34,019 nucleotides of DNA from an uncultured Myxococcales bacterium (lineage in GTDB: Bacteria > Myxococcota_A > Polyangia > Palsa-1104 > JAEUJZ01), in NCBI GenBank assembly GCA_937868485.1, contig CALMML010000501.1, positions 1-34,019 on the forward strand, written 5' to 3'. Below, piece by piece: positions 2,083-33,996 of this stretch (positions are counted from its first letter, which is position 1; every line of letters begins with the position of its first letter). The position numbers and the translations under genes were made by a program. The notes under the pieces are model-generated. The model saw only the letters and a list, made by a program, of their open reading frames with translations, had not been told where the DNA came from and searched no databases.

Positions 2083-2182
2083 TGTAGGATTAGGTTATCA
2101 CAACCGGAATGGAGGAACCATTGCCGAAGCTGCTCGGCGACGGATGGTGTGCCAAAGCGCGGTCAGCGGTGGGGTAGGTTGC

Positions 2183-18110: not shown

Positions 18111-18818
18111 ATGCAGCGCGCACGGTTTGGGCGACAGATTCGATGGCTTGGTCGGGGCTCACGGTCCCTGGCTCAGCTCGTCTGTGGGTCGCTGATAGCG
18201 CTGATTTGCAGCGACGGACGAGCGGATCTGTGGAGCTACGAGCACGACGGAGTGGTCTACTTTAGCAACATTCCTCCGTCGGGACGCGATGGTCACAGGT
18301 GGTCGGTCGTGTCGCGCAGTGGACCGGGCAAGGCACAGACGGTGTCAGGCGTCAGCGGCTGTGAGCGCTCGCGGGCCGACGTGGTGCCGTCGCAAGATCA
18401 GAGCCCCGATCGCTTCCATCGCTACGATCGTCATATTGCCGAAGCAGCGACGGTGTTTGGGCTGCCCGAAGCGCTGATCCGAGCGGTCATCAAGGTCGAG
18501 TCGGACTACGATCCGCGCGTCGTGAGCTGCGCCGGGGCCAAGGGCTTGATGCAGCTGATGCCCGACGTGGCGACGGAGCAAAAGGTGCTCGACGTGTTCG
18601 AGCCGCGCAAGAACATCCTCGGTGGCTCGCGGCTGCTGCGGGTGCTGGCCAATCGCTTTCGTGGTGATTTGGTCTTGACAATTGCCGGATATCATGCTGG
18701 GGCAGGCGCTGTGATGAAATATGATGGCGTGCCTCCGTATGAAACGACGCAGCAGTACGTAAAGATGGTGCTGACGGAATATCAGCGCGAGCGGACGCGA
18801 CTCGGGGACAAACAGTGA
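18111..18818 (+). CDS. Lytic transglycosylase (SLT domain) with DUF4124-like N-terminus
   Basis: 235 residues. A long basic n-region and hydrophobic core form a signal peptide (cleavage near GRA|DL, residue 38). Next is a DUF4124-like stretch (DLWSYEHDGVVYFSNIPPSG). The SLT fold spans about 105-225: AVIKVESDYDP with catalytic Glu130, GAKGLMQLMP (142-151) and AGYHAGAGAV (192-201). The last motif is normally AYNAGPGAV, so His replaces the usual Asn. The enzyme should cleave peptidoglycan glycan strands in the periplasm with 1,6-anhydro product formation. Its TGA overlaps the GTG of the FHA gene (18815-18818), so peptidoglycan cleavage and phospho-signalling genes are translated together. Confidence 0.9.
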   Translation: MQRARFGRQIRWLGRGSRSLAQLVCGSLIALICSDGRADLWSYEHDGVVYFSNIPPSGRDGHRWSVVSRSGPGKAQTVSGVSGCERSRADVVPSQDQSPDRFHRYDRHIAEAATVFGLPEALIRAVIKVESDYDPRVVSCAGAKGLMQLMPDVATEQKVLDVFEPRKNILGGSRLLRVLANRFRGDLVLTIAGYHAGAGAVMKYDGVPPYETTQQYVKMVLTEYQRERTRLGDKQ

Positions 18819-20002
18819 GCGGCTGGCTGCGCCGCTTGTCGACGACGTATCGGATGGCTGTGGCTGCCGAAGCGGCGGGTGACTACCTGGAAGCAGCCAA
18901 AGCGTATGCACTGTGCGAGGAGCGACACAAGGTCGCGGAGATGCACATCCTCGAAGCAGCTCGACGGGCTGTTCCGGGCAGCGCAGCGGCAGAGCTTCTG
19001 ATTGCTGCCAACTTTTTGCATGACGATGAGTCGGCTCCGCAGGCGCTGCTGCGACGGCTCGGGGAAGCGCTGCTGCGGCTTGTGCGAAGTCGCGATCTCA
19101 TCGACAGTGACCGAGAGCTGGCGACGGTGGCTGCGCAGGTGCTGCGTCGGGCCGGGGAGCCACTGCTGGCAGCAGAAGCCTATCAGCGCGTCGGAGATGT
19201 CGATCGCGCCGTCGAGCTTCTGTCTTTGGCCGGTGAAGTCGAGCGCGTCGAGCAGCTGCTGTCCGGGCATCAGTCTGAGCGGGAGCAGGCCGAGCGCGAG
19301 CGTGAGCTGACGGCCAGCTATGAGTCGGCACAGCGGCTGGGTCGGCGAGACGAGGCGCTGTCGCTGCTGCGGCAGCTTGTGTCCGTCGCCAAAGACAAGC
19401 GTGAACCGCAGCGGCTGTGCGACGATCTTTCCCGACGGATGCTCAACAACGGTCAGATCGAGCTGCGGCTGTCGTCTTCCGTCGATGGTGGTACGGAAGA
19501 TCGCGTGCTGTGTGCGCTGCCGCCGCTTTTGTGGGGTCGTGGGGAAGAGTGTGGCGTCGTGCTCGGTGATCCGGGCGTGTCGCGTCAGCATGTTCGCTTG
19601 CAGTTCGACGAGCAGCTGGGCTTTTCGCTGGTCGATTTGGACAGCAAAAACGGGACATTTCTCGACGGAATGCAGGTCGGGCAGGGCGCACGGCTGCCGC
19701 TGCGACAGGTGGGCGAGCTGGGCCTGGGGCTTCACGTTCGCGCGCAGTTTACCGTCGAGCACAATGAGCTGTCGCTGAAGCTGCGAACCGGGATGCGACG
19801 AGGCCTGCGGGTGCGTCTGGCGACGAAAGAGCTGATCGTAGCTGGCCCGCTGCGGCTCCGCTTTTCCGACGGAAAGCCGCTGTTGTTTTGTGATGAAGAG
19901 GGACTGCGTCTAAACGGTCAGCGGGTGGCGTCAGGTGTGCAGCTTGTCGTCGGTGATGTCGTCGAGGCACAGGCGTTTCGCTGCGAGGTCTTGTCGAGAT
20001 GA
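18815..20002 (+). CDS. FHA domain protein with TPR-like N-terminus
   Basis: 395 residues, soluble. The first 210 residues are helical and TPR-like (AVAAEAAGDYLEAAKAYALC; EPLLAAEAYQRVGDVDRAVE). A forkhead-associated domain spans about 228-305, with the phosphothreonine-binding residues G241-R242, S256-R257-x-H259 and N279-G280-T281 all present. The final 85 residues end in LNGQRVASGVQLVVGD, the pattern of an FHA C-terminal half, so a second degenerate FHA is likely. The start is GTG, overlapping the transglycosylase stop by four bases; the stop overlaps the kinase ATG by four (19999-20002). The obvious inference is that it binds a phosphothreonine made by that kinase. Confidence 0.88.
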   Translation: MSGWLRRLSTTYRMAVAAEAAGDYLEAAKAYALCEERHKVAEMHILEAARRAVPGSAAAELLIAANFLHDDESAPQALLRRLGEALLRLVRSRDLIDSDRELATVAAQVLRRAGEPLLAAEAYQRVGDVDRAVELLSLAGEVERVEQLLSGHQSEREQAERERELTASYESAQRLGRRDEALSLLRQLVSVAKDKREPQRLCDDLSRRMLNNGQIELRLSSSVDGGTEDRVLCALPPLLWGRGEECGVVLGDPGVSRQHVRLQFDEQLGFSLVDLDSKNGTFLDGMQVGQGARLPLRQVGELGLGLHVRAQFTVEHNELSLKLRTGMRRGLRVRLATKELIVAGPLRLRFSDGKPLLFCDEEGLRLNGQRVASGVQLVVGDVVEAQAFRCEVLSR

Positions 20003-21450
20003 CGCTGTGGCAGCGGCTGCGTGCGCTCCTGCTGGGATCGTCGGAAGCGTCGCTGCCTGCCGTCGGTCGTCCCCTGCTGCCGCTGTCTGCCGAGGATGAG
20101 CCGCTTGCCCTTCTTCAGCGCTACAGTCGCCAGATTGGACACTTGACCGCGCGTCCTTCGTCGGTAGAACCGTCGGTGCTGACGGCGCTGGAGACGCTCT
20201 GCTCGCTTCGTCGCGAAGATGCCGCGATTCGCATCGCGCAGAGCTTGTCTCGAGCGATTCCGACGGATTCCGCGCTGGCGCTTTTGCTGGCCAAGCTGCT
20301 GCTGTCGTCTCGTCGCCATGCCGAGGCGATTGAGCCGCTTCAGCGGGTGCTTTCGCTGACTGCTCCGCTCGACGCACTGCCGATTCGCTGGCTGCTGGCG
20401 ACGACGCATCGAGAGCTGGGACAAGCGAGCGAAGCGCGAGCGCAGCTGGCCGAAATTGTCTCGATCGACATACGCTTTCCCGAGGCCCAAGCTGCGCTGC
20501 GGGCGCTTTCGTCTTCTGCGACGGAACCGCGACGAGCAAACACGCAAGGCGCGGTGCTGGGTGTGGTGCAGCGAGCAATTTTGCCGACGGTGGCGATGCA
20601 AACGGGTGGTCGCTATGCGCTGCTCCAAGAGCTGGGCGCGGGACGGACGGGGACGGTGTATCGGGCGCTCGACAAAGAGCTGGGCTGCGAGCTGGCGCTC
20701 AAGGTGTTCCATCCGCATCTGCGACAGCGAAACGACGACGATGCGCTTGTGCGGGCGCTTCATGAAGCACGGCTGCTGTCGGCGGCGCGACATCCGGGCA
20801 TTGTCGCGCTCTATGCCGTCGAAGGGGACGAGCTGGACTCGTCGCGGCAGCTGCCACTTTTGGCGATGGAGCTGTGCCGGGGCGGATCGCTGCGGATGCG
20901 GCTGCGCAGCGGGCGACTTCCCGTCGCGGTTGCGCTGGGTCGTGCGCGTGAGCTGTGCGAGACGCTGACGGAGCTGCATGCGGGCTCGCTGTCGCACGGT
21001 GATCTGAAGCCGGAAAACCTGCTGTTTCGGGGCGATGGACGGGGTCGGTTTGCGCTGCCGGAGTCCGAGTCATCCCTCGGAGACTTGGTGATTGCCGACT
21101 TTGGGCTGTCGCGACTGCGGAAAGAGCCTGGTGCCGTCGGTGTTGGCACGCCTGGATATCTGTCGCCGGAGCGCTTTGCCGGATCGCCGCCATCGCCTGC
21201 AGCCGATGTATTTTCCGTCGCAGTGGTGCTGTGCGAGCTGCTCTGTGGCGATGTGACCGAGGTGCTGGTTCCGTCGAAGAAAGAAGCGATTGGGGCTCAC
21301 GTGCTGCTCGCGTGCGTTCATCCTCAGCTGGCTGCGCTGGGGTCGCATGGTCCGTCGCTGCGTGCGCTGATCGCGGACATGCTCTGTGTCGATCCTACAG
21401 CCCGTCCGTCGGCAGCCCAGGTGAGTCAGCGACTGGCGGCGTGTCTTTAA
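19999..21450 (+). CDS. Ser/Thr kinase with N-terminal TPR region and HGD catalytic loop
   Basis: 483 residues. The first 190 are TPR-like helices. The kinase domain follows (about 205-480): Gly loop GAGRTGTVY (213-221), K235 in LALKVF, catalytic loop HGDLKPEN (333-340), DFG at 367-369 and GTPGYLSPE. The loop reads HGD where the plus-strand consensus is HRD; Asp335 remains, so activity is plausible but activation by loop phosphorylation may differ (non-RD type). No membrane segment is visible, unlike the other kinases here, so it is cytoplasmic. It is coupled to the FHA gene by a 4-bp overlap. Its last 56 bases overlap the 3' end of the convergent TPR gene. Confidence 0.9.
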   Translation: MTLWQRLRALLLGSSEASLPAVGRPLLPLSAEDEPLALLQRYSRQIGHLTARPSSVEPSVLTALETLCSLRREDAAIRIAQSLSRAIPTDSALALLLAKLLLSSRRHAEAIEPLQRVLSLTAPLDALPIRWLLATTHRELGQASEARAQLAEIVSIDIRFPEAQAALRALSSSATEPRRANTQGAVLGVVQRAILPTVAMQTGGRYALLQELGAGRTGTVYRALDKELGCELALKVFHPHLRQRNDDDALVRALHEARLLSAARHPGIVALYAVEGDELDSSRQLPLLAMELCRGGSLRMRLRSGRLPVAVALGRARELCETLTELHAGSLSHGDLKPENLLFRGDGRGRFALPESESSLGDLVIADFGLSRLRKEPGAVGVGTPGYLSPERFAGSPPSPAADVFSVAVVLCELLCGDVTEVLVPSKKEAIGAHVLLACVHPQLAALGSHGPSLRALIADMLCVDPTARPSAAQVSQRLAACL

Positions 21451-22435
21451 GGCTCGGGGCCGAAGGGGCACTTGGCGACGAAGCACAGCCCGGAACTTGG
21501 CTCTTGGTTTCGGCCAGATGTTCTTCGGCTCGACGGAGATGCGCACGCGGTGTCGTCGCTGGAGCCGTCTGAAGATAGCTGGTCAGAAACGACACACGGT
21601 CACAGCTTGGCGGACGCAGCAGCGCTTCGTAGTAGTCGCGATCTGCCGTCGGAACAAAGTCGCTCATCTTCAGAAAGCGCAGGCTCAGATCGCTGCGACG
21701 AAGCTGGGTCATCAGCTTGAGCGGTCTTTGTCGACGACTGCGATCCAGCGCTGCGAGCAGTCCTGCACAGCTTCGCGCGACGTTTACCAGCGGCTGTAGC
21801 GTCGGCAAGTCCAAGCAGGCTTGGCTGTAGAGCGGAATCGCTTCGTCGAGCCGACCTTGCGCCATCAGCACGTCGCCCAGACGATAGAGCACACGATGGC
21901 TCGGTCCGTCGCTGATCAGCATTCGACGATACTGCGCAATCGCGATGTCCAGCTCTCCTCGTCGGGTTTGACACAGCGCAATGCCAAGCTGGAGCGCTTG
22001 TCGATCACGCAAGCGATGCTCGATGGGCGACGACGGGGGCGCGCTGAGCATCCGCTCCATCAGCGACAGTCCGACGTCGCAGGCACCTTGCTCGGCGTAG
22101 GTCACGGCCAGCAGCAGCCAGGACTCGGTCTGCTCGGGAAACGTCTGCGTCGCATCTTGCAAGTCAGCGACGGTCTTACCGAGGTCAGCTCCCGGGGCCG
22201 TCTGTCCAAACAGAAGCTGGCTGCGCGCGCTGTGGATGATCTGTTCGTAGAGCTGACTGTCGGTGGCTCCGCCTCGCGAGGGACAGCCCCACAGCGACAG
22301 CGCACAGTCGCGAACCACCTTTTTGGGGGTCTTGGCTCCGACGGCGGGTCTGTCCGGCTTCGCTGCCTCATCCGCTCGCGTCACCGTCGAGCCCAGCAGC
22401 CCAATGCTCAGCATCAGCCCGAGACTTCGCTTCAT
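21395..22435 (-). CDS. Secreted TPR protein (B)
   Basis: 346 residues. Signal peptide with cleavage near TRA|DE (about residue 21). TPR-like repeats run about 85-235 (LDIAIAQYRRML; GRLDEAIPLYSQACLDL). DFVPTADRDYYEALL (259-273) and a later TTPRAHLRRAEEHL match parts of the TPR gene just upstream, so the two are paralogues. This one lacks the AgmX/PglI-type C-terminal domain and instead ends in a Pro/Ser-rich tail. The ATG overlaps the upstream stop by four bases (22432-22435). It is the last gene of the long minus-strand run and overlaps the 3' end of the convergent kinase gene by 56 bp. It is probably periplasmic; partner unknown. Confidence 0.84.
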   Translation of the reverse strand: MKRSLGLMLSIGLLGSTVTRADEAAKPDRPAVGAKTPKKVVRDCALSLWGCPSRGGATDSQLYEQIIHSARSQLLFGQTAPGADLGKTVADLQDATQTFPEQTESWLLLAVTYAEQGACDVGLSLMERMLSAPPSSPIEHRLRDRQALQLGIALCQTRRGELDIAIAQYRRMLISDGPSHRVLYRLGDVLMAQGRLDEAIPLYSQACLDLPTLQPLVNVARSCAGLLAALDRSRRQRPLKLMTQLRRSDLSLRFLKMSDFVPTADRDYYEALLRPPSCDRVSFLTSYLQTAPATTPRAHLRRAEEHLAETKSQVPGCASSPSAPSAPSLKDTPPVADSPGLPTDGL

Positions 22436-23781
22436 CGCGCCTCGAAGTGAATCGGAAGCGCCAGCTCGTCGTTGTCATCGTTGCCAGCGGCGGCGGGCGG
22501 AAAGCGAAAGCGCTGGAGCGCGTTTTGGACACAGCGAAGCAGCTCTGTCGCAGGTGGCATCGACGAGGTCTGCGTTCCCGTCGGCTTCCACGATCCACGA
22601 TCCGCCAGCGAGTTATCAAGCGGCTGAACCAGCAGCACCGCGCCGCTCGGATCGACGATCAGGGCCACCAGCATGTCGCCGCTGAGCCTTGGTGCGCGTC
22701 GCAGTCCTTGGGCGTAGCACTGACGCAGCTCGAGCATCTTGTCGCGGACACCTTTGTGGATGTCTTCTTCCGTGCGGTGCTTTTCGACGCCACCGCTGCT
22801 GTCTTCGGGCGCAAAGTGCGGTGAGCCCACGACGACGTTGGCGCGGAACAGCTCTGCGACGGGAATTCCCGGCAGCTTCTGCAAGTCTTCCAGGTGTTCT
22901 TTGGCGCGCGGCGTGTAGCGACTCTTGGGAAGCTCGACGACGAACTGACGGAAGGATCGCAGCGCTTCATCACGATTGCCGAGCGCTTCAGCCAGAAGAC
23001 CGTCGTAATAGAAGCGATCTCCGTCGGGAACAAAGAAGACTTCATCGCCTTGATAGATGCGCAGACCGGGATCAGCAGCCAGCGAGCGTCCGAGCGCTTC
23101 CCGACTTTTTTGCACCTGTCCGTCTCGATCGTAGGCCACCGCCAGACCCAGCGCATGCAGCGCGCTCTGATCGCCGGTATCCAGCTGCTCGGCTTGGCTG
23201 TAGCGACGGATTGCCTGGTCCAGCTTGCCCATCGCCATCAGCGCTTCCGCCGAGTTTGACAGCAGCGTCGCTTGCTGGTGCCGACTGGGAAACAGCAGCG
23301 AGTCCGGCTCTCCCGGTAGCAGTCGCAGCGCGCGATCGTATTCAGCGACGGCTTCCTCGAAGCGACCCAGGTGCGACAGCACGATGCCAAGCTGCGTCGC
23401 GATCTCGAAGTCCCAGCTGCCTGTGTCGTCGAACTTGCGGGCAAGCTGAAGCTCGGCAATCGCTTGCGTCATCGCGGGATTGCCCAGCTCTGGCCGCGAC
23501 ATCCACTCACCCAGCCAGACTCGAGCTTCGACATCGCTCGGTTCCAGCACCAGCGCCTTTTGCAGCAGCGAGATCGCGGTCTGGGTCATGCTGATTCGCT
23601 CTGGATGGTCGCGCCGACGGTGCTTCAGTCCCGCGTAATACAGCACCTTGGCGTTTTCCTTGAGCCGCGCAAGCTGCTGGACTTTGCTCTTTCCCGTCGG
23701 ACCGGGCAGTACATCGGCGCTGTGTCCCGACGGACAAAACAGGAGCGCCACGATGGCCCAAGTCACCACGAACAGTCGCAT
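22432..23781 (-). CDS. Secreted TPR protein (A) with AgmX/PglI-type C-terminal domain
   Basis: 449 residues from the ATG at 23781, which opens a signal peptide (cleavage near GHSA|DV). A GTG at 23814 would add 11 residues; neither start has a Shine-Dalgarno. TPR-like repeats span about 65-280 (LGRFEEAVAEYDRALRLLP; GKLDQAIRRYSQAEQLD). The C-terminal ~100 residues look like the AgmX/PglI domain: MLELRQCYAQGL, VALIVDPSGAVLLVQ, then LLRCVQNALQRFRFP, with Cys355 and Cys417 in the usual places. That domain is found in myxobacterial gliding-motility and envelope proteins. VFFVPDGDRFYYDGLL (248-263) marks it as a paralogue of the next gene, with which it shares a 4-bp overlap. Confidence 0.84.
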   Translation of the reverse strand: MRLFVVTWAIVALLFCPSGHSADVLPGPTGKSKVQQLARLKENAKVLYYAGLKHRRRDHPERISMTQTAISLLQKALVLEPSDVEARVWLGEWMSRPELGNPAMTQAIAELQLARKFDDTGSWDFEIATQLGIVLSHLGRFEEAVAEYDRALRLLPGEPDSLLFPSRHQQATLLSNSAEALMAMGKLDQAIRRYSQAEQLDTGDQSALHALGLAVAYDRDGQVQKSREALGRSLAADPGLRIYQGDEVFFVPDGDRFYYDGLLAEALGNRDEALRSFRQFVVELPKSRYTPRAKEHLEDLQKLPGIPVAELFRANVVVGSPHFAPEDSSGGVEKHRTEEDIHKGVRDKMLELRQCYAQGLRRAPRLSGDMLVALIVDPSGAVLLVQPLDNSLADRGSWKPTGTQTSSMPPATELLRCVQNALQRFRFPPAAAGNDDNDELALPIHFEAR

Positions 23782-23835
23782 ACCGGCAGTATAGCGGGGC
23801 TTGTGCGTGCTCACCCGTCGGATTGCACAGGGCAG

Positions 23836-25305
23836 CTACAGCGAGCGATTGAGCGCGATCGCAATCGTAGAGGGTGACAGCGCGAACGGATACCCAATCA
23901 GCACATCCGGCTTGTGGTCTGCGTCGATGTCCGTGGCGTAATAGACCACCGAGTTTACGCCGACACCGACGCTTTCTGGATAGATCACCGACGGACTTAG
24001 ATAGCCGCCTTGTCGATTCGACAGCATCACGAGCGAAGCACTCTGCGTCTTGTCGCCAAAGATGATGTCGGGCCAGCCGTCTCCGCTGATGTCTTCGGCC
24101 AGCACACGAGCAGACGGAGACCGTCCCGCTTCCAGCAGATTTCCCGTCGCCAAGACACTGTTCGTGTTGTAGATGGGAAGCAGTCCTTTGGCACACGTCA
24201 GCAGCAGATCGGGACGACCATCTTGGTTCAGATCGCGACACGTCAGCCCAGCGGCTGCACATCCCGGTGCGGGCACGATGCTCTGGGTAAAGTCTCCGGT
24301 TCCGCTTTTTTGAGCAACGTGAAGCTCGCCGGGACCATCGACCCAGTACAGCTCATCGGTTCCGTCGCCGCTGGTGTCGCAGGCTGCGGACTCTGCGATG
24401 AAGGTTCCGGTCGAAATCACCATGCTGCGCTCATACGATCCGTCGCTCTTGAGCGTCAACAGAGACAGGGTTCGATCCATTGCATCGCTGACCATCAGCG
24501 TTCGCTGCGGGCTCGGGGACAGCTTGGTCCAGACGATCTGCTCAGGTCGGGTTCCGGTCTGGATGGATGGACCCGCGACAAAGCTTCCTTTTCCGTCGCC
24601 ACGAAACGTCTGAATCAAGCCTGCGGTAGTCACCAGAAGATCCAGCATTCCGTCCCCGTCTGCGTCCACCGACTGGATGTCTTGTCCGCTCTGTGTGGAG
24701 TCGCCCAGCGTCAGATACGTTGCGGGTTGCAGGGTTCCGTTTCCTTGTCCCAGACAGACTGCAATCGCGGGCTCATTGCCGGTGACGAATGCAACATCTA
24801 GCTTTCCGTCTCTGTTGAAGTCTCCGATGGCGAGCCTGCGTGCGCTTCGCGGCTCTCCGTATCGCTGAATTGAAAAACGTGCGGCTTCGGAATAGTAGGA
24901 AAACAGATCCGTACGTTTGACCGCTTGTCCGGTGGGATTGCGCAGCGCAATAGGCGTCCACCAGGATCCGTCTTTGCTTGCAGGAAGCGAAAACGACAGC
25001 TCGATCGAAGATACGTACTGCACATCAGGAATCTTCTGTTCCTGCCAAAGCACTTCTACGCCGGGTAGGAATCGCTCTCCCAAGATGCGAACAGAGCCAC
25101 CACCGCTCGTCGGTGTCAGGCTGGGATTCACCGCATACATGGCCAGTGCAGGATGACAGATCTGATCTTGCGGATCACAGACTTCATCGGCCAAGCACAG
25201 ATCAGGACTTGCGACACAGTTTTCTGGATTGGGAATGCTGAGACTGCCCCAAACAGACTGGCATCCACAGAGCAATGTGGCGACGAGAAAAGTAGATGAT
25301 TTCAT
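23836..25305 (-). CDS. VCBS/FG-GAP repeat lipoprotein (B) with IPT domain
   Basis: 489 residues. Lipoprotein signal ending LCGC (Cys15). A four-Cys cluster follows (C30, C37, C43, C50), then an IPT/TIG-like Ig fold (NPSLTPTSGGGSVRILGERF). The rest is a beta-propeller of FG-GAP/VCBS repeats with calcium-binding loops, such as DFNRDGKLD, DADGDGMLD, DTSGDGTDE, DLNQDGRPD, DISGDGWPD and DIDADHKPD. Such propellers serve extracellular adhesion or protein-protein contacts. It is a paralogue of the lipoprotein at 26940-28433, which has the same order of elements. It lies 40 bp after the second PEGA protein on the same strand. Likely surface-exposed on the outer membrane. Confidence 0.87.
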   Translation of the reverse strand: MKSSTFLVATLLCGCQSVWGSLSIPNPENCVASPDLCLADEVCDPQDQICHPALAMYAVNPSLTPTSGGGSVRILGERFLPGVEVLWQEQKIPDVQYVSSIELSFSLPASKDGSWWTPIALRNPTGQAVKRTDLFSYYSEAARFSIQRYGEPRSARRLAIGDFNRDGKLDVAFVTGNEPAIAVCLGQGNGTLQPATYLTLGDSTQSGQDIQSVDADGDGMLDLLVTTAGLIQTFRGDGKGSFVAGPSIQTGTRPEQIVWTKLSPSPQRTLMVSDAMDRTLSLLTLKSDGSYERSMVISTGTFIAESAACDTSGDGTDELYWVDGPGELHVAQKSGTGDFTQSIVPAPGCAAAGLTCRDLNQDGRPDLLLTCAKGLLPIYNTNSVLATGNLLEAGRSPSARVLAEDISGDGWPDIIFGDKTQSASLVMLSNRQGGYLSPSVIYPESVGVGVNSVVYYATDIDADHKPDVLIGYPFALSPSTIAIALNRSL

Positions 25306-25345
25306 TGGCGCTGTTCGCCTTTCTGATTCAAAGAAGCGAATCGAT

Positions 25346-26953
25346 TTAGGGAATCAGAGCCCATGGTCCGGCGGACTCAAGCTGTCCGGGCGGAATCACG
25401 GGACGACTGGCATTGCGAGGTCCGGGCCACGCCAAAAGAAGCGCACCCGAGACGGTGAAAGCAGATCCAATTCCGACGAGTGCAGCACCAGCGGGAGTCG
25501 TTTGATACAGGTTTGAACAGACAGCCATCGGTGGCACTGCTGGCTCGATACACTGACCAGAGATCGCGAGTGCAGAGGCTCCCAGTGCGACCAGTCCCAG
25601 ACCGACTCCGATGCCTGCAATTCCGGTGGCAATCCGCCACTTTGGACGCGGATTCCGATTGGGAGGAAGTCGCACAATCAGCGGTGCTGTCTCTTCTGCA
25701 CGGAGGCTTATCGCAAGCTGCGTTGTCTGTCCTGGCCTCACTTCATTGCGAACGGTCTGCGCGGTGTATCCCGGACGCACAATCTCTAGCTCGATGTCTC
25801 CGGCGAACAGCGGAATGCGAAGCGGAGTGATTCCCAGCCTGCGATTCCGTAGCTTCACCAGCGCACCTGCGGGCTCGGTTTGCAGTGCGAGTGTGCCGCG
25901 ACCGCGTGTGACCGCATCGTGAATCAAGCGCGGAAGCTGCGAGGCTGCGGACTCTGTCACTGCGGCTTCCGTACAGGGACTACACGGCACCGCAAGCTGC
26001 GCGGCCACTTCCCCAATCTGCGGATCGTGGAGCGCAAGCCGCGCTTCTGTGGACTGTGCTGCGGAAGACTGCGCTGGATCTAGCGACAGACCAGAGACGG
26101 TTAGCAGATAGTCTGCGTACGACTGATCGGTCAGCTTCAGGATGCAGCGCGCGTCTCCCTTGCAGTCTTCTCGACCATGCGGAGGCGCAGAGATCACAAA
26201 CAGACCCGCTTGCTCCAGTCGCGAAAGGAGCGGTGCGTGTGAGTCTTGCTGCGCGCTCAGCGTGCGAACATACAGATCCTGTTCCACTTGAAGCAGCGCG
26301 GTCGGAAGCTGCGACAGAACCGGCGCGCTCGACGGATTCGCGGCAGTGTCTGTCTTCAAGAGATAGGCGCGATGCGCTTGTACAGAGACGGTCACTGTCT
26401 GTCGACTGTCTCCGTGTGTGAGCGTGATGTTGTGACTTCCTTCCGCGAGCAGCAGCGGCAAAGGAAGTGGCAACATGCCAACCAGTCTGTCGTCGACATA
26501 AACCTGCGTCTCGGGCTCTCCTTGAATCAGGAGATCGCCGCTTGATCCTTGTCCTTGCGAGACAATTCGCTCTGCTTCTGCGCGCTGCTGCGGACTTTGA
26601 TTTCCGGGACCTGCGCTGACCAGATAACGCCGCAGCAGATCCTGCGAAAGGAAGGTCTGTCCTTCGGTGTAAGCGACGATTCCCAGCTGATACAGCGTGT
26701 CTGGACGATGGTCGAGCAGATACGCTTCAGAGAGCGCTGCGTACGCCTGCGCAAAGTTGCGTGACACAAGCGCCAGCACACCTTGCGCGACAAGCTGCGC
26801 GCTGCGCTCCGAAGGACTCTCTACCGCAGGCTGCGGACGCGGTGCGCGGACTCCTTTGGTGTATCCCTGCGATGCCACAGAGAGCACGACAGAGACAGCC
26901 ATCCAGCGACTGACGCACAAGCTGCGCGGACGATGCAGATTACGGCGTGACAT
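25346..26953 (-). CDS. PEGA-domain membrane protein (B)
   Basis: 535 residues from the ATG at 26953, overlapping the upstream stop by 14 bases. A signal-like hydrophobic stretch lies at 18-30. A TPR-like region (50-135) is followed by a first PEGA-type domain (139-200, GEPETQVYVDDRLVGMLPLP). A middle domain holds CSPC (324-327). A second PEGA domain spans 353-418 (TEPAGALVKLRNRRLGITPL). Two membrane segments end it (about 440-466 and 487-510), with a loop containing GQCIEP and a second Cys. The order PEGA, Cys pair, PEGA, two membrane segments is shared with the protein at 28430-29761. This one alone has the TPR-like part. Role unknown; likely envelope-anchored with the PEGA domains extracytoplasmic. 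Confidence 0.83.
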   Translation of the reverse strand: MSRRNLHRPRSLCVSRWMAVSVVLSVASQGYTKGVRAPRPQPAVESPSERSAQLVAQGVLALVSRNFAQAYAALSEAYLLDHRPDTLYQLGIVAYTEGQTFLSQDLLRRYLVSAGPGNQSPQQRAEAERIVSQGQGSSGDLLIQGEPETQVYVDDRLVGMLPLPLPLLLAEGSHNITLTHGDSRQTVTVSVQAHRAYLLKTDTAANPSSAPVLSQLPTALLQVEQDLYVRTLSAQQDSHAPLLSRLEQAGLFVISAPPHGREDCKGDARCILKLTDQSYADYLLTVSGLSLDPAQSSAAQSTEARLALHDPQIGEVAAQLAVPCSPCTEAAVTESAASQLPRLIHDAVTRGRGTLALQTEPAGALVKLRNRRLGITPLRIPLFAGDIELEIVRPGYTAQTVRNEVRPGQTTQLAISLRAEETAPLIVRLPPNRNPRPKWRIATGIAGIGVGLGLVALGASALAISGQCIEPAVPPMAVCSNLYQTTPAGAALVGIGSAFTVSGALLLAWPGPRNASRPVIPPGQLESAGPWALIP

Positions 26954-28433
26954 TTTTGAACAGCGATAGCTTTCCGGTGCGCTGCGCAATCACCACATCC
27001 GGCTTTCCGTCGGCTGTGAGATCTCCTACGTAGATCGAACGTGCCAGCGCAAACGACTCCAGAGGATAGTTTGCGCTTCGCGTAAAGACTCCGCCACCGT
27101 CTCCTGCATGAACTTCAAAGCGCTCTGCTGCGGCATTGTAATCCAGGGCGACAATGTCGTTTGTTCCGTCTCCGTTCAGATCCGCGACACCACAGCACTC
27201 ATCGCTGGAAAAGCTATCGAAGCGCTGTCCAGCGACGGTGTTTCCCGTTCCATCGCCCCAAAACAGCTGAAGCTCTGTTGCACCGGACACCGATGAAACC
27301 ACATCCAGCAATCCGTCATGGTTCAGATCTGCGGCAACCGGGGTCAGCAGGGACCGCTGTGAGATGCTGTAAAACGAGCTACCGAGCGATCCGTTTCCCT
27401 GATTCAGAAAGACCCCGAGTCGTGTGTCTTTTCCGCTGGTCAGGATGATGTCCGAACGTCCATCTCCGTTCATGTCTCCGGTCGTGATCTGCGACGAAGC
27501 GTCCAGCAGCTGTAGCGTGTGCGGAAACTGTTTTGGCGTGCCAAACATCCCGGTTCCCAAGCTGGGATAGACAGACAGATTGGCTCCGTTTCCCAGCACG
27601 AGGTCGGCGTTTTTGTCGCTGTTTACATCCAGCAGAGCCAGTCCGCCCACCGTCACGGGAACTTGCAGCGAACCGACCACCGTGAAGGTTCCGTCCCCTG
27701 TTCCAAGCGCCACTTCCACCACCGGCTGTGGACCCGATTCAGTGACCACCACATCGGGTTTTCCGTCATTGTTTACGTCGCCCACTGCCATCGAGATCGG
27801 ACGGGCCGAAAACGCAATCGGAGCGATCTGACGCAGCGTTCCGTCTTGCTGTCCCAAGAAGATGGCAACCGGCGTGGCCGCATCTGCAGACTGCGCCAGA
27901 TCAGGACGTCCATCTTGGTTAAAGTCCGCCGAGCGCAGCATCCGAACGGTGGAAGGACTACTGATCTGTATCACCGGCGCAAACTGTGGAAACGGATAGT
28001 AGTGAAACAGCTTTCCTGCCAAAAGGACTTGTCCCGAAGGCGCGGTCAGCTGCACTTCCATCGCTTGCTTGGTTCCGCTCTGCGCGGGCGCCATTGCCGT
28101 GATCTGCGAGTTCGACACCACAGTCAGCTTCGTCGCTGGCTTGCCCCCGATGGTGAGCGTCATTCCTTCTACGAAGTTCTTTCCCTTGATCGTCAGCAGA
28201 ACTTCTTGATCGTACGGAGCCGCTTTGGGGGAAAGGGAATCGATCCGCAGCGCGGGTTCGCATTCCCTTGTGAGCTGGTTGCAGATTGTGTCCGGTTCCG
28301 TACACAGTTGCATATTTGCAACACAGCTTGCTGGATTCGACTGTGACAGTCCGCCAAACAGTGCTTCACAGCTTGCGCCGGTCAGCGCGGTTCCGAGTAG
28401 CAGCATGCGTGCGATGACTGCGCGGTGTCTCAC
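26940..28433 (-). CDS. VCBS/FG-GAP repeat lipoprotein (A) with IPT domain
   Basis: 497 residues from the GTG at 28433. This start is chosen because it overlaps the upstream stop as GTGA, has AAGGAG seven bases upstream and opens a lipoprotein signal ending GASC (Cys22); the frame itself is open to 28487. A four-Cys cluster (C37, C44, C51, C58) and an IPT/TIG-like fold (about 65-150) follow. The propeller has seven calcium loops: DFNQDGRPD, DVNNDGKPD, DVNSDKNAD, DMNGDGRSD, DLNHDGLLD, DLNGDGTND, DLTADGKPD. Seven blades are likely. It is the paralogue of the protein at 23836-25305. Coupled to PEGA protein A upstream; its own end overlaps PEGA protein B. Confidence 0.88.
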   Translation of the reverse strand: MRHRAVIARMLLLGTALTGASCEALFGGLSQSNPASCVANMQLCTEPDTICNQLTRECEPALRIDSLSPKAAPYDQEVLLTIKGKNFVEGMTLTIGGKPATKLTVVSNSQITAMAPAQSGTKQAMEVQLTAPSGQVLLAGKLFHYYPFPQFAPVIQISSPSTVRMLRSADFNQDGRPDLAQSADAATPVAIFLGQQDGTLRQIAPIAFSARPISMAVGDVNNDGKPDVVVTESGPQPVVEVALGTGDGTFTVVGSLQVPVTVGGLALLDVNSDKNADLVLGNGANLSVYPSLGTGMFGTPKQFPHTLQLLDASSQITTGDMNGDGRSDIILTSGKDTRLGVFLNQGNGSLGSSFYSISQRSLLTPVAADLNHDGLLDVVSSVSGATELQLFWGDGTGNTVAGQRFDSFSSDECCGVADLNGDGTNDIVALDYNAAAERFEVHAGDGGGVFTRSANYPLESFALARSIYVGDLTADGKPDVVIAQRTGKLSLFKNVTP

Positions 28434-29761
28434 TTGCCTACTCCTTGCGAGGGCTGCGTCTTGGGGGGAATCACGTTCCCGGGCCAAGCCATCGTCAGGA
28501 CGCCTCCCAGAATCAGCGCGGAACCCGTTGTGACAAGACCCAGTCCCAGGGGACGCGTGGCATAGAGCGCATCACAGTGACGCGCGGATCCTTCCGGTGC
28601 GGTGATGCACTGACCGTCGACAGACAGCGCGCCTGCACCGATTCCCAGAAGGACTCCTCCCACACCAATTCCTGCGGCTCCCGCTAGGAGTCGCCAGCGC
28701 GGACGCGGGGATCGTTCTACGCTGGGTTTGCTGCCATCAAGCACAATCACGCGACGCTTGCGCGCCGCCGCTTCCTGCTCGCTCCACTCTTGTTCCGCCG
28801 GTTCCAATTTCAGGGTCACGCTGGACTCTGCACTCTCTGCCACATCGACACGCTGCAGCAGCTCACGATATCCAGGCAGACTTGCACGAAGCTCGACGGT
28901 GCCAGCCCAGACTCTGCGCTGTAGCGGAGCCATTCCTACTCGCTCTCCGTTGATGAGCACTTCTGCTTGGGAAGGCTCTGTCTGGATGCGTAGGAATCCC
29001 TTTTTGCGCGTCAGCGCTGCACTGGCCAGCGGAGACAGCACTTGCGACAGCTTGTCCTTTAGCATCTCGACGCTACAGCTTGGACAGGATTCACTGATCG
29101 CACTGGCCTGCTGTCCGACGCTGCGATCCACAACCTGCGCTCGCACAGCATAGCTACGCACGCTTGCTGAATCACTCGGTCCTGCGCTCGCAGTGACAGA
29201 CAACACCACCGTGTAATCGACTTGCTGCTTGGCGGCTTGATCGGACAGACACGCAGTCTGTGTCAAACAGGAAGCGGGTGGCAGCGCATCGCGCGGAAGC
29301 TGAATCAGCGTCAGTCTCTGCTTCGACAGCGCGCGCACCGTCGCAATCGCCAGCTCTTCTTCCGCTGCTTTGGGAATCCCTTCGTACTGCTCTAGCAGCA
29401 GCGCATGCGGAGGCACCGTAATCGACACCGCTTGCACGCTGAAGCTGAAGCGAACTTCTTGCGCACGACCCGCGCGAACGTCCACCTGCGCGCTGAGCGT
29501 ACTGCGTCCTTGCGTTGCGGTGATCACATGCTGTCCCGCGCGCAGCAGCAGCGGAGCCGAAAGAGGAAGCTGCTGCGTCGGCTCGCCGTCGACGGAGATC
29601 TGGGTTCCGCGCTCCGCAAAGACCTCGACTTCACCGCTTGGCTGAACATCGACTGTGCTTGGCTGCGCACGCACCACTGGATCGATTCCCAGCGACAGCG
29701 CGATGAGCACACCGAGCCGCAGCAGCACTTGGTTGTGCCGCGAAGTCTGCTTCACGATCAT
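28430..29761 (-). CDS. PEGA-domain membrane protein (A)
   Basis: 443 residues from the ATG at 29761. This start overlaps the upstream stop as ATGA and has AGGAAG six bases upstream; the frame runs on to 29875. Signal peptide with cleavage near VRA|QP (32). First PEGA-type domain at 44-108 (AERGTQISVDGEPTQQLPLS), a middle domain with CPSC (226-229), then a second PEGA at 255-320 (TEPSQAEVLINGERVGMAPL). Two membrane segments (358-381, 405-427) flank a loop with GQCITAP and another Cys, ending AWPG. The same layout recurs in the protein at 25346-26953, so the two are paralogues. It lies between the kinase-HEAT protein and lipoprotein A, with 4-bp overlaps on both sides. Confidence 0.85.
   Translation of the reverse strand: MIVKQTSRHNQVLLRLGVLIALSLGIDPVVRAQPSTVDVQPSGEVEVFAERGTQISVDGEPTQQLPLSAPLLLRAGQHVITATQGRSTLSAQVDVRAGRAQEVRFSFSVQAVSITVPPHALLLEQYEGIPKAAEEELAIATVRALSKQRLTLIQLPRDALPPASCLTQTACLSDQAAKQQVDYTVVLSVTASAGPSDSASVRSYAVRAQVVDRSVGQQASAISESCPSCSVEMLKDKLSQVLSPLASAALTRKKGFLRIQTEPSQAEVLINGERVGMAPLQRRVWAGTVELRASLPGYRELLQRVDVAESAESSVTLKLEPAEQEWSEQEAAARKRRVIVLDGSKPSVERSPRPRWRLLAGAAGIGVGGVLLGIGAGALSVDGQCITAPEGSARHCDALYATRPLGLGLVTTGSALILGGVLTMAWPGNVIPPKTQPSQGVGK
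28441..28446 (-). promoter_or_regulatory. Shine-Dalgarno fixing the GTG start of VCBS lipoprotein A
   Basis: AAGGAG on the minus strand, seven bases before the GTG at 28433, inside the end of the PEGA protein A gene. Together with the GTGA overlap it decides this start. Confidence 0.8.
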
Positions 29762-32700
29762 GGACAGCTTCCTGCTTTCACCGTCTGCGTGGCTTTCACC
29801 ACCACCGTCTGCGGCTTTCCTTCGATCGTGATCTGATGACTTCCCGGCGGCATCCACAGCGGCAGCAGCGCGCACGACTTTTTGGAAAACTTGGGAACCA
29901 TCACCACCCCAAGCTGAGGCACCAGTCGCAGGATCGCGGCTTGGGTCGACGACTTTTCTTCCGCCTTCCCCGACACTTTCGGACTGAGCTTCATCGCCAG
30001 CTCAAACTCTGTCATCGCTTCTGCCGTGTGACCTTGGGCTTCGTGCGCGCGTCCGAGCAGCACCGACAGCTCAAACGACAGCTCTGCACAGCCCGGCGTC
30101 TTTTCCGACCGCGTACACAGCCGTCGCGCCTTTCCGAGCAGCTGCTCTGCCGCCGCGAAGTCTTTGGTGTCCAGCGCGTGCCGACCGCGCCGTGCCAGCT
30201 CTGCCACCTGCGTGGTCTTTTCCGTTCCGCTCGGACTCGCAATCGGAGTCGATCCCGTCGGTGGCGCACTGTCGTTAGGACTTGGCTCACGCGGTGGTGC
30301 CGTCGTCTTGTCGTCTGCTTTCTGCGGCGCGAGCTTCGTCGGCTGTGGCATCGGAAGCGCCAGCGCCGAGCTGCTCGCGGACACATTGAGCAAGCGCAGC
30401 AGCAGCGCCGCCGCTCGCGTTCGCACCACCGCATTGCCATCGTCGGACAGCAGTCGCAAGATTCCCAGACCTGCGGGCTTGCCGTCGATGAGCGGAAGCT
30501 CTGCCGCGACCTCTGCCGCCTGGCTTCGCACCTGCACCGATGGATCACGCGCCGCTTTCTGAAGCAGAGGCAGGCTCACCGTCAGCGGCGACAGCAGCAG
30601 TCCTTCCACCACCGCGACGCGCTGCTCGACCGGCACCGTCGTCGAAAGCTGTGACAGCAGGTTCGGCGGATCGACGTGCTCGCCCAGCTTCAGCAGCAGC
30701 CCATACGCCGTGGCCGCCGCGCTGCCCCCTTTGCCGAGCGCTTCCCGCAAGACCGGCACCGCCCGCACATCGCCCGCCTCGGCCAGCCGTCGCGCCGCCG
30801 CCATTCGCAGCGCCCAGCTCTCTTCGGACAGCGCGCGCTTCCACAGCTCGCGGTCCCCGTCTTCGCGATCGATGATCTGTCGTCGCTGCTCGTTGTCAGC
30901 TTTGCCGTACAGCTCGTTTAGCTGCTGTCGCTGCGACGTGTCACCGAGCCGCTCCAGCCCAATCCTCGCCAGGATCTGATCGGCCTGCTCCCCGCGCAGC
31001 AGCACGTCGGTCAGCCACGAGCGCACTTGACCCACAAGGTCGCTCTGCTTGAGCTTGGACAGCAGCGTCGTCACCTTCACCAGCGTGCGCAGCGCTTCGC
31101 TTCGTACTTCGCTCGCTTCGTCGGACAGACCTTGATGCAGCGCTTCCAGCGACGACGCATCACTCCGCTGTCCCAGCGCCCGCATCGCACTGCGTCGGAC
31201 GCTCGCAACCTTGTCCTTGGTCAGTCGCAGCAGCAGCGTCTCTGCCTGCGCCGAGCGGTCTTCGCTGAGCACGCCCGCCGCATCCGCTCGCAGCGCAAAG
31301 TCGTCGTCGTCACTCGCCAGACGCGCCCAGGTCAGGCTCTGATCCGATAGCGAGGTCGGCTCGCGGGCCGCAATGTCGACGATCGCAATCGCCGCCTGAT
31401 GTCGCAGCTCTTGGGACGGATCGCCGCTCAGGATCGACGCAAGCAGCCGCACATCCGTCGCGACACCCGACAGCGCCAGCCCTTCCATCGCAATCTGTCG
31501 CGATGCCAGCGTGGCATCTTGGGCCTCTGCCACCTTGCGAAACATATCGAGTCCCACCGGGCTTTCCGGCGTCGTCAGCAGGCGCGCCGCAAACAGCTGC
31601 TCTGCCCCCGGCTGCGCGGCCAGCTCCGTCAGAAATCGTCGTCCCACCTCGTCGTGAACCGCTGCCAGTCGACCCGCCGCCAGCAGCTTGTGCTCGCGTC
31701 GTCCCGGCCTGGTCAGTCGCTGTCGCAGCAGCGACTTCGCTTGCTCATCCCCGCCACGCGCCAGCCGTCCGAGCAGCCTCACCGCTTGCTCTTCCGACGT
31801 GCCCGACATCGTCGCCACTCCGAGAAGAATCTCAATCGCTTTCGGGTGCCCTTGCTCGCTCAGCCAGTACGCCGCTTTCTGTCGCGCCATCGGGTCGCTG
31901 CCGTCGAGCGCTTGCATCAGCAGCTTCTGACCCTGCGGATCACCCAGCTGAGACAGCGCCGCCGCCGCCGCAATCTGCACATTTGGTGCCGACTTTTGAT
32001 CGATCAGCATCTGAAGCCGAGGAATCGCTTGTCGATCGCCCAGCTCGCCAATGGCCGCTGCGGCTTGGGCTGCAATCTCGCTGTTTCCGTCGGAAAGAAG
32101 CGGCAAAAGCTTCGGCAGCAGGCTCAGGTCGTGGGTCCAGCCCAGCTCGCTCAGCACCGACGCACGCAGCTCGGGATCTGACGCGCGCAGCTCGCCCACC
32201 AAGAACGCCGTTGCTTGCGCTCGGGCTTCGGCCAGCTCACTCGGACGAAGCTGAAGCTGCGCGGCCTTGCGCTGGTTCGATAGGTAGCGACTGCCCAGGT
32301 ACAGACCGCCGCTGGCCAGCACCAGCACCGACGTCGCCGCAATCACCGAGCTAAGGAACACGCGCTGCTTGGCTTCCTTCGACAGCCCGCGAAAGCCGCT
32401 CTGCAACAGCTTCGCTGCGTCTTTGCCGAGCACCACACGCTCGCCCCGCTGAATCTGTAGCAGCTCAATTTCTTTGCCCAGCTCCGCGATGACTTCTTTC
32501 ATCGACGGATAGCGATGGTCAGCAGCCTTCGCCAGCAGCTTCATCACCAGCATGTCCAGCGCTTTGGTGATCTTCAGCTTCGGGTGCTTGCTGTGCAGCG
32601 TCGGCGCCGGCATCGAGACATGCTTGAACATCAGGCTCGTCGGTGTCGCGCCTTCAAACGGGAGCTGTCCCGTCAGCATCTCAAACAAGATGCAGCCGAG

Positions 32701-32979
32701 CGCATACTGATCCGCCCGCGCATCGACCTCTGCCGCGCACGCTTGTTCCGGCGACATGTACAGCGGCGTACCCAGCACCGACCCCACTTCCGTCAGTCGC
32801 CCGCTTCCGCTGTAGCTGTTGTCGCTGCGACCACTTCGCTGTGCCGCCGTGAGCTGCTCGATCTGCTCCTGACGCAGCGCCTGATTGGCTCGCAGTGCGA
32901 TGCCAAAGTCGACGATCTTGACGAAGTCCTTCTGCCCCGTCTGCTCCACCAAAAAGATGTTCTCTGGCTGAGGATTCAT
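29758..32979 (-). CDS. 5'-truncated Ser/Thr kinase fused to HEAT repeats and a TPR-like tail
   Basis: 1073 residues from the ATG at 32979; a TTG at 33102 would add 41 Arg/Ser-rich residues unlike any kinase. The protein begins MNPQPENIFLVE, which aligns with the middle of HRDLKPENIFL in the other kinases. The whole N-lobe, ATP-binding Lys and catalytic HRD are therefore missing. What remains is DFG (24-26), GTPLYMSPEQA (70-80), the C-lobe, a membrane segment (about 207-230), a long run of HEAT-like helical repeats (about 250-880), a Pro/Thr-rich linker, a TPR-like region and a short beta-rich end. It cannot be a working kinase but could survive as a HEAT scaffold. The stop overlaps PEGA protein A by four bases. 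It may be a decaying pseudogene. Confidence 0.8.
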   Translation of the reverse strand: MNPQPENIFLVEQTGQKDFVKIVDFGIALRANQALRQEQIEQLTAAQRSGRSDNSYSGSGRLTEVGSVLGTPLYMSPEQACAAEVDARADQYALGCILFEMLTGQLPFEGATPTSLMFKHVSMPAPTLHSKHPKLKITKALDMLVMKLLAKAADHRYPSMKEVIAELGKEIELLQIQRGERVVLGKDAAKLLQSGFRGLSKEAKQRVFLSSVIAATSVLVLASGGLYLGSRYLSNQRKAAQLQLRPSELAEARAQATAFLVGELRASDPELRASVLSELGWTHDLSLLPKLLPLLSDGNSEIAAQAAAAIGELGDRQAIPRLQMLIDQKSAPNVQIAAAAALSQLGDPQGQKLLMQALDGSDPMARQKAAYWLSEQGHPKAIEILLGVATMSGTSEEQAVRLLGRLARGGDEQAKSLLRQRLTRPGRREHKLLAAGRLAAVHDEVGRRFLTELAAQPGAEQLFAARLLTTPESPVGLDMFRKVAEAQDATLASRQIAMEGLALSGVATDVRLLASILSGDPSQELRHQAAIAIVDIAAREPTSLSDQSLTWARLASDDDDFALRADAAGVLSEDRSAQAETLLLRLTKDKVASVRRSAMRALGQRSDASSLEALHQGLSDEASEVRSEALRTLVKVTTLLSKLKQSDLVGQVRSWLTDVLLRGEQADQILARIGLERLGDTSQRQQLNELYGKADNEQRRQIIDREDGDRELWKRALSEESWALRMAAARRLAEAGDVRAVPVLREALGKGGSAAATAYGLLLKLGEHVDPPNLLSQLSTTVPVEQRVAVVEGLLLSPLTVSLPLLQKAARDPSVQVRSQAAEVAAELPLIDGKPAGLGILRLLSDDGNAVVRTRAAALLLRLLNVSASSSALALPMPQPTKLAPQKADDKTTAPPREPSPNDSAPPTGSTPIASPSGTEKTTQVAELARRGRHALDTKDFAAAEQLLGKARRLCTRSEKTPGCAELSFELSVLLGRAHEAQGHTAEAMTEFELAMKLSPKVSGKAEEKSSTQAAILRLVPQLGVVMVPKFSKKSCALLPLWMPPGSHQITIEGKPQTVVVKATQTVKAGSCP

Positions 32980-33081
32980 TCCTCGCACTTCCGTCGAGAA
33001 ATGGCTGGTTTTCAGTGCCCTGCGGAAGGAAGAGGGAAGTCGCTCTGTCGCCTGGGTCTTTCCGTAGCGCCAGACCCTCTG

Positions 33082-33210: not shown

Positions 33211-33996
33211 CTAGAACTCCAATATCGGCTCAGGAATCACTGGGATTCCACCGATATCAGCCAGTATGCACTTGAAGATGCCAGTGAGCTGGAGCTGTAA
33301 CTGGACCGGAATGGTAGACATTCTTTTTTCGTACTGCCTTCGATAATCCGCAATCACATGGGCCAAATGACCTTTCGCGGACGGACCGTATAGCTTCACA
33401 AGCATGCGATATGTATTGTAATCTTTTGTGGCCACATCTTTGGGGTATTCTAAGATATCAGTCAATAGTTCCATGTAAATCTGCCATGGAATCAAAACAC
33501 CAAAGATCTCATCGCGGTTTGGCACTTTTGCGAGATGCAGACAGATATGATGATAGGCAAGTAGATCACTGGAACGTAGCGCGATCGTTTGCGCAAGTAG
33601 CTCTTTGCTGATGATTCCGTTGTAGTTGAGCTTGTTTTCAAGCTCCCAGTATGTTCCCACTTCATCCAGCAGCTCTTCAGCAACGGGATCATAGATGAGC
33701 AGCTCTTGGAACAGGAGCTTGATCTCGTGTCTCCGTTTGTCCCATTGCGACGTGCCGTGATACTGCGCTTCACCTCGCTGTGCTTCTTCGACCTCTTGAT
33801 CTGCTTGATACACCAATGCACCAATATAGGTTACGATTGGACCGAATTTTTCCAGAAACTCGCGCGCAGTGCATCCATAGAGAGAATGCATGGTAAATGC
33901 CATTGGATACAGCACCGTATTGATCTTCTTTAAGCCCAACAGAGAGACGACAGGTACTCTGCTCTGGCTCCACGGCTGAATGTTTGGCTCCGTCAT
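33211..33996 (-). CDS. Hypothetical protein, A/T-richer than its neighbours
   Basis: 261 residues, not recognised. The ATG at 33996 has AAGGAG seven bases upstream, so the gene is complete and translatable. No signal peptide or long membrane segment is visible. The sequence suggests a mostly helical soluble protein (YQADQEVEEAQRGEAQYHG, ELLIYDPVAEELLDEVGTYW). I see no catalytic motif I can name. Base composition and codon choice (frequent A/T third positions) differ clearly from the GC-rich genes around it, suggesting recent acquisition. It sits next to the broken 5' end of the kinase-HEAT gene, so its insertion may be linked to that truncation. Confidence 0.75.
   Translation of the reverse strand: MTEPNIQPWSQSRVPVVSLLGLKKINTVLYPMAFTMHSLYGCTAREFLEKFGPIVTYIGALVYQADQEVEEAQRGEAQYHGTSQWDKRRHEIKLLFQELLIYDPVAEELLDEVGTYWELENKLNYNGIISKELLAQTIALRSSDLLAYHHICLHLAKVPNRDEIFGVLIPWQIYMELLTDILEYPKDVATKDYNTYRMLVKLYGPSAKGHLAHVIADYRRQYEKRMSTIPVQLQLQLTGIFKCILADIGGIPVIPEPILEF

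Follow-up and report, generated by a model that had tools for sequence, protein, structure and literature searches.

The window analysed here is a whole contig (G000:C501, 34,019 bp) of an uncultured Myxococcales bacterium, and carries a seven-gene minus-strand operon in which a kinase-HEAT gene is followed by two pairs of genes for PEGA and FG-GAP/VCBS propeller proteins and by two tetratricopeptide repeat (TPR) genes. The locus raises the question of why its first gene begins inside the kinase domain, directly beside DNA of much lower GC content. The answer that we favour, with a probability of roughly four in five, is that the kinase of an old envelope operon was cut by a site-specific integrative element, one of a family that appears to target the DNA encoding kinase catalytic loops. 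The window genome, G000, is fragmented (6.36 Mb in 514 contigs), and its named congeners are Myxococcales metagenome-assembled genomes (CALLYL01, JAEUKB01). We compared it with two congeneric genomes (G001 and G002), a genome from another genus of the same family (G003) and a control genome (G007).

A kinase-HEAT gene cut in its catalytic loop

The kinase-HEAT gene (29758..32969, minus strand) is a 3′ fragment only, encoding the kinase C-lobe, a transmembrane segment and HEAT repeats (HEAT_2, 1e-39). PF00069 covers just profile positions 125-256 in this frame, and the frame upstream is not kinase. A sequence-only reading of the same DNA had put a kinase-HEAT gene at the head of the operon; the gene is indeed present and first, but it is no intact kinase, as both the N-lobe and the HRD motif are gone. 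The GC content falls from 65% to ~46% where foreign DNA begins, at ~32970. Comparison of the junction with an intact ortholog in G001 and a split one in G002 places the resumption of the C-lobe at a core, AGCCAGA (32963..32969, minus strand), taken from the K-P-E codons of HRDLKPEN: the window reads ...ATTTCTCGACGGAAGTGCGAGGAATGAATCCT|CAGCCAGAGAACATC, whereas the uninterrupted G001 ortholog reads HRDLKPENIFLVEQ. In G002 a single contig holds both lobes of the gene, separated by 3.45 kb. The N-lobe of G000 is found on contig C343 from position 2943, in a segment syntenic with the DNA upstream of the G002 ortholog (86% DNA identity over 3 kb), and is 94.8% identical to the G002 N-lobe. The break falls in the same codons in both genomes, but what is inserted differs. 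For annotation, this means that the first gene of the operon in G000 is not to be taken for a functional kinase, and kinase function has probably been lost wherever such a split occurs. Because the window is the whole contig, it ends inside the inserted DNA, and the stretch from the break to the contig end (32970..34019, no strand assigned) comprises the right end and part of the putative element, as recognised by an end-model match (see below) and the GC drop. It includes ORFX (33211-33996, minus strand; 261 aa, low GC), for which no match was found in Pfam, NCBIfam, PHROG or PADLOC.

Dozens of kinases in the three congeneric genomes are cut within the HRDLKPEN codons. Kinase censuses of G000, G002 and G007 were based on PF00069 matches, with counts given in each case among the 150 matches listed. 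G000 has 21 N-lobe-only and six C-lobe-only breaks at profile positions 120-134, or about a fifth of the ~150 kinase matches examined, and G002 has ten of each at positions 118-129, while the control, itself in 430 contigs, has no catalytic-loop break among its 150 (Fisher test against G007, 4e-9 for G000 and 1e-6 for G002). Some of these breaks are contig ends, so that stronger evidence comes from the 16 kinases in which N-lobe, insert and C-lobe follow one another on one contig strand, with inserts of 0.24-8.0 kb.

Element ends, cargo and recombinases

The inserts share their ends. In the window the end is bipartite, with CGTCG at 32992-32996 followed by GGAAG...GGGAA up to ~33040, reading inward on the plus strand. 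An end model of 76 positions was built from element DNA and applied to 116 genomes of the class. It matched 26 times in G000, 34 times in G001 and 21 times in G002; across the 113 remaining genomes its best match reached E = 0.008. The window end scores 35.3 bits (model R1, E 5e-9); when the model was built without the window row, 32982-33039 was still found at E 1.1e-5, as the sole significant match in 34 kb. Among 22 newly fetched end matches, nine directly adjoin kinase C-lobes and ~5 adjoin HRDLKPE-type fragments or tandem ends; the exceptions include a repeat and a glycosyl-hydrolase-like gene (L208 5954, G000:C438). For the left end, a search pattern of HRDLKP codons, 15 nt and CGTCG was given up as a detector: intact kinases match it too, because K-P-E-N-I-F-L-V-E itself encodes CGTCG. 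The same coincidence hints that element ends may mimic their target.

Three types of insert can be told apart. In the commonest, the kinase is cut after AAGCC (K-P) and resumes at AGCC, and the right end runs TTCCC-N5-CTTCC, then CGACG, then core. In a second type the cut follows CAYCGNGA (H-R-D) and a conserved leader precedes the start codon of a serine recombinase, and in a third the HRDLKP codon stretch is rebuilt where the kinase resumes. The core is duplicated: the stretch common to both ends of an insert averages 8.5 nt at its own locus and 6.0 nt when ends are mismatched (p = 5e-5 by permutation), although three of 17 inserts (L039, L154, L157) showed no clear direct repeat. At L101 3357-7168 (G000:C381), two identical 1908-bp cassettes lie head to tail at CAGCC between the kinase halves, which suggests very recent activity. 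Separately, two different kinases of G002 are interrupted after HRDL by 0.5 kb of short tandem repeats (GCGCGAGCCATTTCTGCGGTGAACATGG...), similar in both (L039 3025-3552, L156 1672-1091).

Insert cargo is varied, and includes a type II restriction-modification system (methylase plus DUF4928 enzyme), a HEC-01-like defence pair, TGT, TauD, an ABC-F-like ATPase, a desaturase, LysR and DJ-1. CysNC and CysD, together with a chloride channel, occupy the same insert in the same kinase of two species (L103 2565-7106, L147 1418-5999), and housekeeping-type genes thus ride in these inserts as well. The target is one codon motif and no transposase was found among the cargo proteins scanned, which is not the picture of a transposon or insertion sequence.

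Recombinase genes adjoin some of the breaks. Tyrosine recombinases, in the elements carrying the gene, have a complete R-K-HxxR-H-Y set in the alignment (PF00589, 5e-16), and at six loci their stop codon lies 76-84 bp from a kinase half. These six kinase-adjacent loci fall in two separate clades of a tree of 33 relatives, twelve of which, mostly from other genera, adjoin tRNA genes, mainly tRNA-Ala. Family members number nine in G000, 14 in G002 and 16 in G003, and at most three in the other genomes sampled. A weak end match in G003 stands ~0.5 kb from such a recombinase, and the element family may accordingly reach beyond the genus. Viral collections gave no support for a phage: the K1 recombinase had no match among phage records and no relative in IMG/VR; general PHROG integrase profiles do match it. 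Contigs L200, L210 and L212 end inside tyrosine recombinase genes, and the copies in L210 and L212 hardly differ, which is what elements that multiplied recently would show. Serine recombinases of ~370 aa (PF00239 plus three PF07508 stretches) lie beside other breaks, starting ~70-110 bp after the kinase HRD at L084, L090 and L091. PF07508 is scarce, with three matches in G000, and serine recombinases cannot therefore account for all inserts.

Taken as a mechanism, these data point to an element family of this genus that would use the DNA for H-R-D-L-K-P-E-N as its attachment site. The element end would consist of the core, ~15-20 nt, CGTCG, ~27 nt and GGAAG.G.GGGAA, and a recombinase, most plausibly the adjoining one, would join this end to the corresponding half of the catalytic-loop codons. 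Each insertion parts the N-lobe from the C-lobe and duplicates a locus-specific core of 7-13 nt, and cassettes that carry no recombinase would presumably be mobilised in trans. At least three recombinase lineages (two tyrosine clades and one ~370-aa serine clade) appear to have reached this target. Present in ~150 kinase genes, the motif offers the conservation and redundancy that classical islands find in tRNA genes.

Competing explanations and known systems

Several points weigh against integration by such an element family. The break falls after HRD or after KP depending on the element type, so that no single uniform system is seen; most inserts have no recombinase of their own that could have moved them; all three congeneric genomes are metagenome-assembled; several N-lobe halves stop at contig ends and by themselves prove nothing; and the end alignment was seeded partly by a motif search, although an earlier recognition of the right end and the model built without the window are independent of that seeding. 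A rival explanation is an error of assembly or binning, with contigs breaking or misjoining at catalytic-loop DNA and the truncated kinase and its low-GC tail forming a chimera. In its favour, several N-lobe halves finish 1-3 bp from a contig end, and the window itself stops 1 kb beyond the break. We consider such an artefact very improbable given the 16 kinases with both lobes and insert on one contig, the common end motif with its core duplication, the orthologous cysND insert in two species (L103/L147), the window end found by a model that had not seen it and a control that, with 430 contigs and 150 kinase matches listed, shows no such break.

Conserved active-site codons are favoured by self-splicing introns and by inteins, either of which could restore function after transcription or translation. 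That explanation is hardly credible here, as inserts carry genes on both strands with stop codons soon past the break, two identical cassettes stand in tandem, and, at Rfam gathering thresholds, neither the window nor 11 insert loci gave a match to a group I or group II intron. An integron-like arrangement, in which one recombinase acting in trans builds cassette arrays at kinase sites, would account for the many recombinase-free inserts with common ends, the identical tandem cassettes joined at CAGCC, the paired ends in tandem at L195 and L199, and the varied cargo; we nonetheless hold it to be unlikely, with at least three recombinase lineages at the breaks and cross-over points that differ among them. 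Integration by several kinds of catalytic-loop-targeting element remains our preferred reading.

Among known systems, the nearest analogues seem to us to be the islands inserted in dusA (PMC4482086) and the SP-beta element of spsM (PMC4191935). Tyrosine-integrase islands in tRNA genes or in conserved protein genes, dusA among them (PMC4482086), likewise have an integrase at one end, a direct-repeat attachment core, conserved target DNA and variable cargo, and recombinase relatives in this class adjoin tRNA-Ala. Unlike these, the present target motif is common to ~150 paralogous kinases with dozens of sites occupied per genome, the kinase gene is split rather than rebuilt, and the inserts (0.2-8 kb) often have no integrase. 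Large serine-recombinase elements (SP-beta in spsM, PMC4191935; skin in sigK) also place the recombinase at the attachment site and halve a host gene, but the recombinase is shorter here (~370 aa), and the targets are many kinase genes plus a gene with a calcium loop. Integrons resemble our elements as small mobile units with common ends, mixed cargo and tandem copies, whereas ours are sited inside kinase genes and have inverted bipartite end motifs and serine or tyrosine recombinases of other families. A search of open PMC papers, with subscription papers and preprints outside its scope, turned up no account of an element aimed at the catalytic loop of kinases.

If this reading holds, the active-site motif of a large paralogous family can act as an integration hotspot as tRNA genes do, unrelated recombinases would have converged on one catalytic-loop target, and there would be an explanation for the truncated kinases, and for the breaks between contigs, in genomes of this kind. 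The elements would also be a source of recombinases with a defined natural target. They also pose a question: with about one kinase in five split, are the splits neutral, or do they serve as a reversible switch? In an extended version, which we regard as quite improbable, the kinase genes would be a genome-wide landing array for exchangeable cassettes, with reversible splits and excision restoring kinases, so that recombinases would remodel the set of signalling proteins at the same time as they moved defence and metabolic genes around.

The operon and its neighbours

The minus-strand order proposed by the sequence-only reading (kinase-HEAT, PEGA-A, VCBS-A, PEGA-B, VCBS-B, TPR-A, TPR-B) was borne out, as were the overlaps of 4, 4 and 14 bp between the first genes, given starts at 29761 (ATG), 28433 (GTG) and 26953 (ATG), and the 4-bp overlap of the two TPR genes. 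PEGA-A (28430..29761, minus strand, as are all operon genes; PF08308, 4.2e-14) comprises a signal or transmembrane segment, a PEGA-like domain, CPSC, a PEGA domain, two C-terminal transmembrane segments and AWPG, and PEGA-B (25346..26953; PF08308, 7.1e-12) was recognised by the same family and motifs. PF08308 is above its cut-off in both, so membership among PEGA proteins is clear, but of the two PEGA domains suggested for each protein Pfam finds one, the N-terminal one being merely PEGA-like. The CxxC pairs (CPSC/CSPC), the AWPG tails and the two hydrophobic C-terminal segments were all recovered; in PEGA-A a structural model places the C-terminal helices at 355-381 and 403-425, but its confidence is low (mean pLDDT 60) and it could not support a fold search. 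PEGA-A and PEGA-B have an identity of 31%, with six invariant cysteines in common.

Both VCBS lipoproteins, VCBS-A (26940..28433; PF13517, 6.9e-50; PF01833, 6.2e-11) and VCBS-B (23836..25305; PF13517, 8.4e-30; PF01833, 2.4e-4), have the expected lipobox, four-Cys cluster, TIG domain and FG-GAP propeller, with five and three DxNxDGxxD calcium loops, respectively. The codons of the second calcium loop of VCBS-A (DVNNDGKPD, 27753..27779) are intact in the window. In G002, VCBS-A is split in this second loop (L039 ~11690, L040 ~10716), directly before a decayed serine recombinase, and in G001 its homology stops in the same loop, at a contig end (L041 5352 to end). TPR-A (22432..23814) and TPR-B (21395..22435; TPR_16, 7.9e-12) share the predicted motif, as VPDGDRFYY and VPTADRDYY, and TPR-A has in addition an AgmX/PglI C-terminal domain (NF033768, 5e-11), absent from the earlier description.

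The PEGA-VCBS pairing can be followed into another genus of the same family. A G003 locus (contig C47) has the order kinase-PEGA-FGGAP-PEGA-FGGAP, in which the first PEGA protein best matches window A (182 vs. 146 bits), as does the first FG-GAP protein (231 vs. 132), and the second pair best matches window B (PEGA 260 vs. 91, FG-GAP 176 vs. 75); TPR-A and TPR-B were not found at this locus. Such A-A and B-B positional orthology indicates tandem pairs older than the split of the two genera, and the doubled [PEGA + FG-GAP/VCBS] block behind the kinase-HEAT gene is, as judged from these comparisons, an old tandem duplication. Both families are Pfam-recognised in Myxococcota (PF08308 and PF13517); what sets this locus apart from other PEGA and FG-GAP proteins of the phylum is that the tandem kinase-[PEGA-VCBS]x2 layout is kept at family level, and we know of no name for it.

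Within G000, an FG-GAP gene neighbours five of the ~17 PEGA genes examined (four loci), which is above chance expectation, and a kinase neighbours ~6 of them, so that a kinase adjoins PEGA genes as often as a VCBS gene does. A possibility that we would not favour is that PEGA and VCBS are two ordinary envelope families, each expanded independently, whose genes became neighbours by chance, as there are 23 PEGA and 46 VCBS matches in the genome and about two thirds of the PEGA genes examined have no FG-GAP neighbour. The colinear orthology in G003 and the adjacency at four loci argue against this. The matched pairs and co-occurrence anticipated by the sequence-only reading thus stand as far as conservation in G003 and at the four G000 loci goes, but not as obligate matching, which the mostly unpaired PEGA and VCBS paralogues do not support: the association is genuine without being obligatory. 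From their domains, the products would form an envelope module, with a transmembrane Ser/Thr kinase bearing a HEAT-repeat output or sensor part, two co-inherited pairs in each of which the PEGA membrane protein may anchor its propeller lipoprotein, and, in this genus, two TPR proteins.

Elsewhere in the window, two further complete kinases stand in tandem at 325-3928. An FHA gene and a TPR-kinase gene (18815-21450) are convergent with the operon, and this pair, including its position beside TPR-B, is kept in G002.

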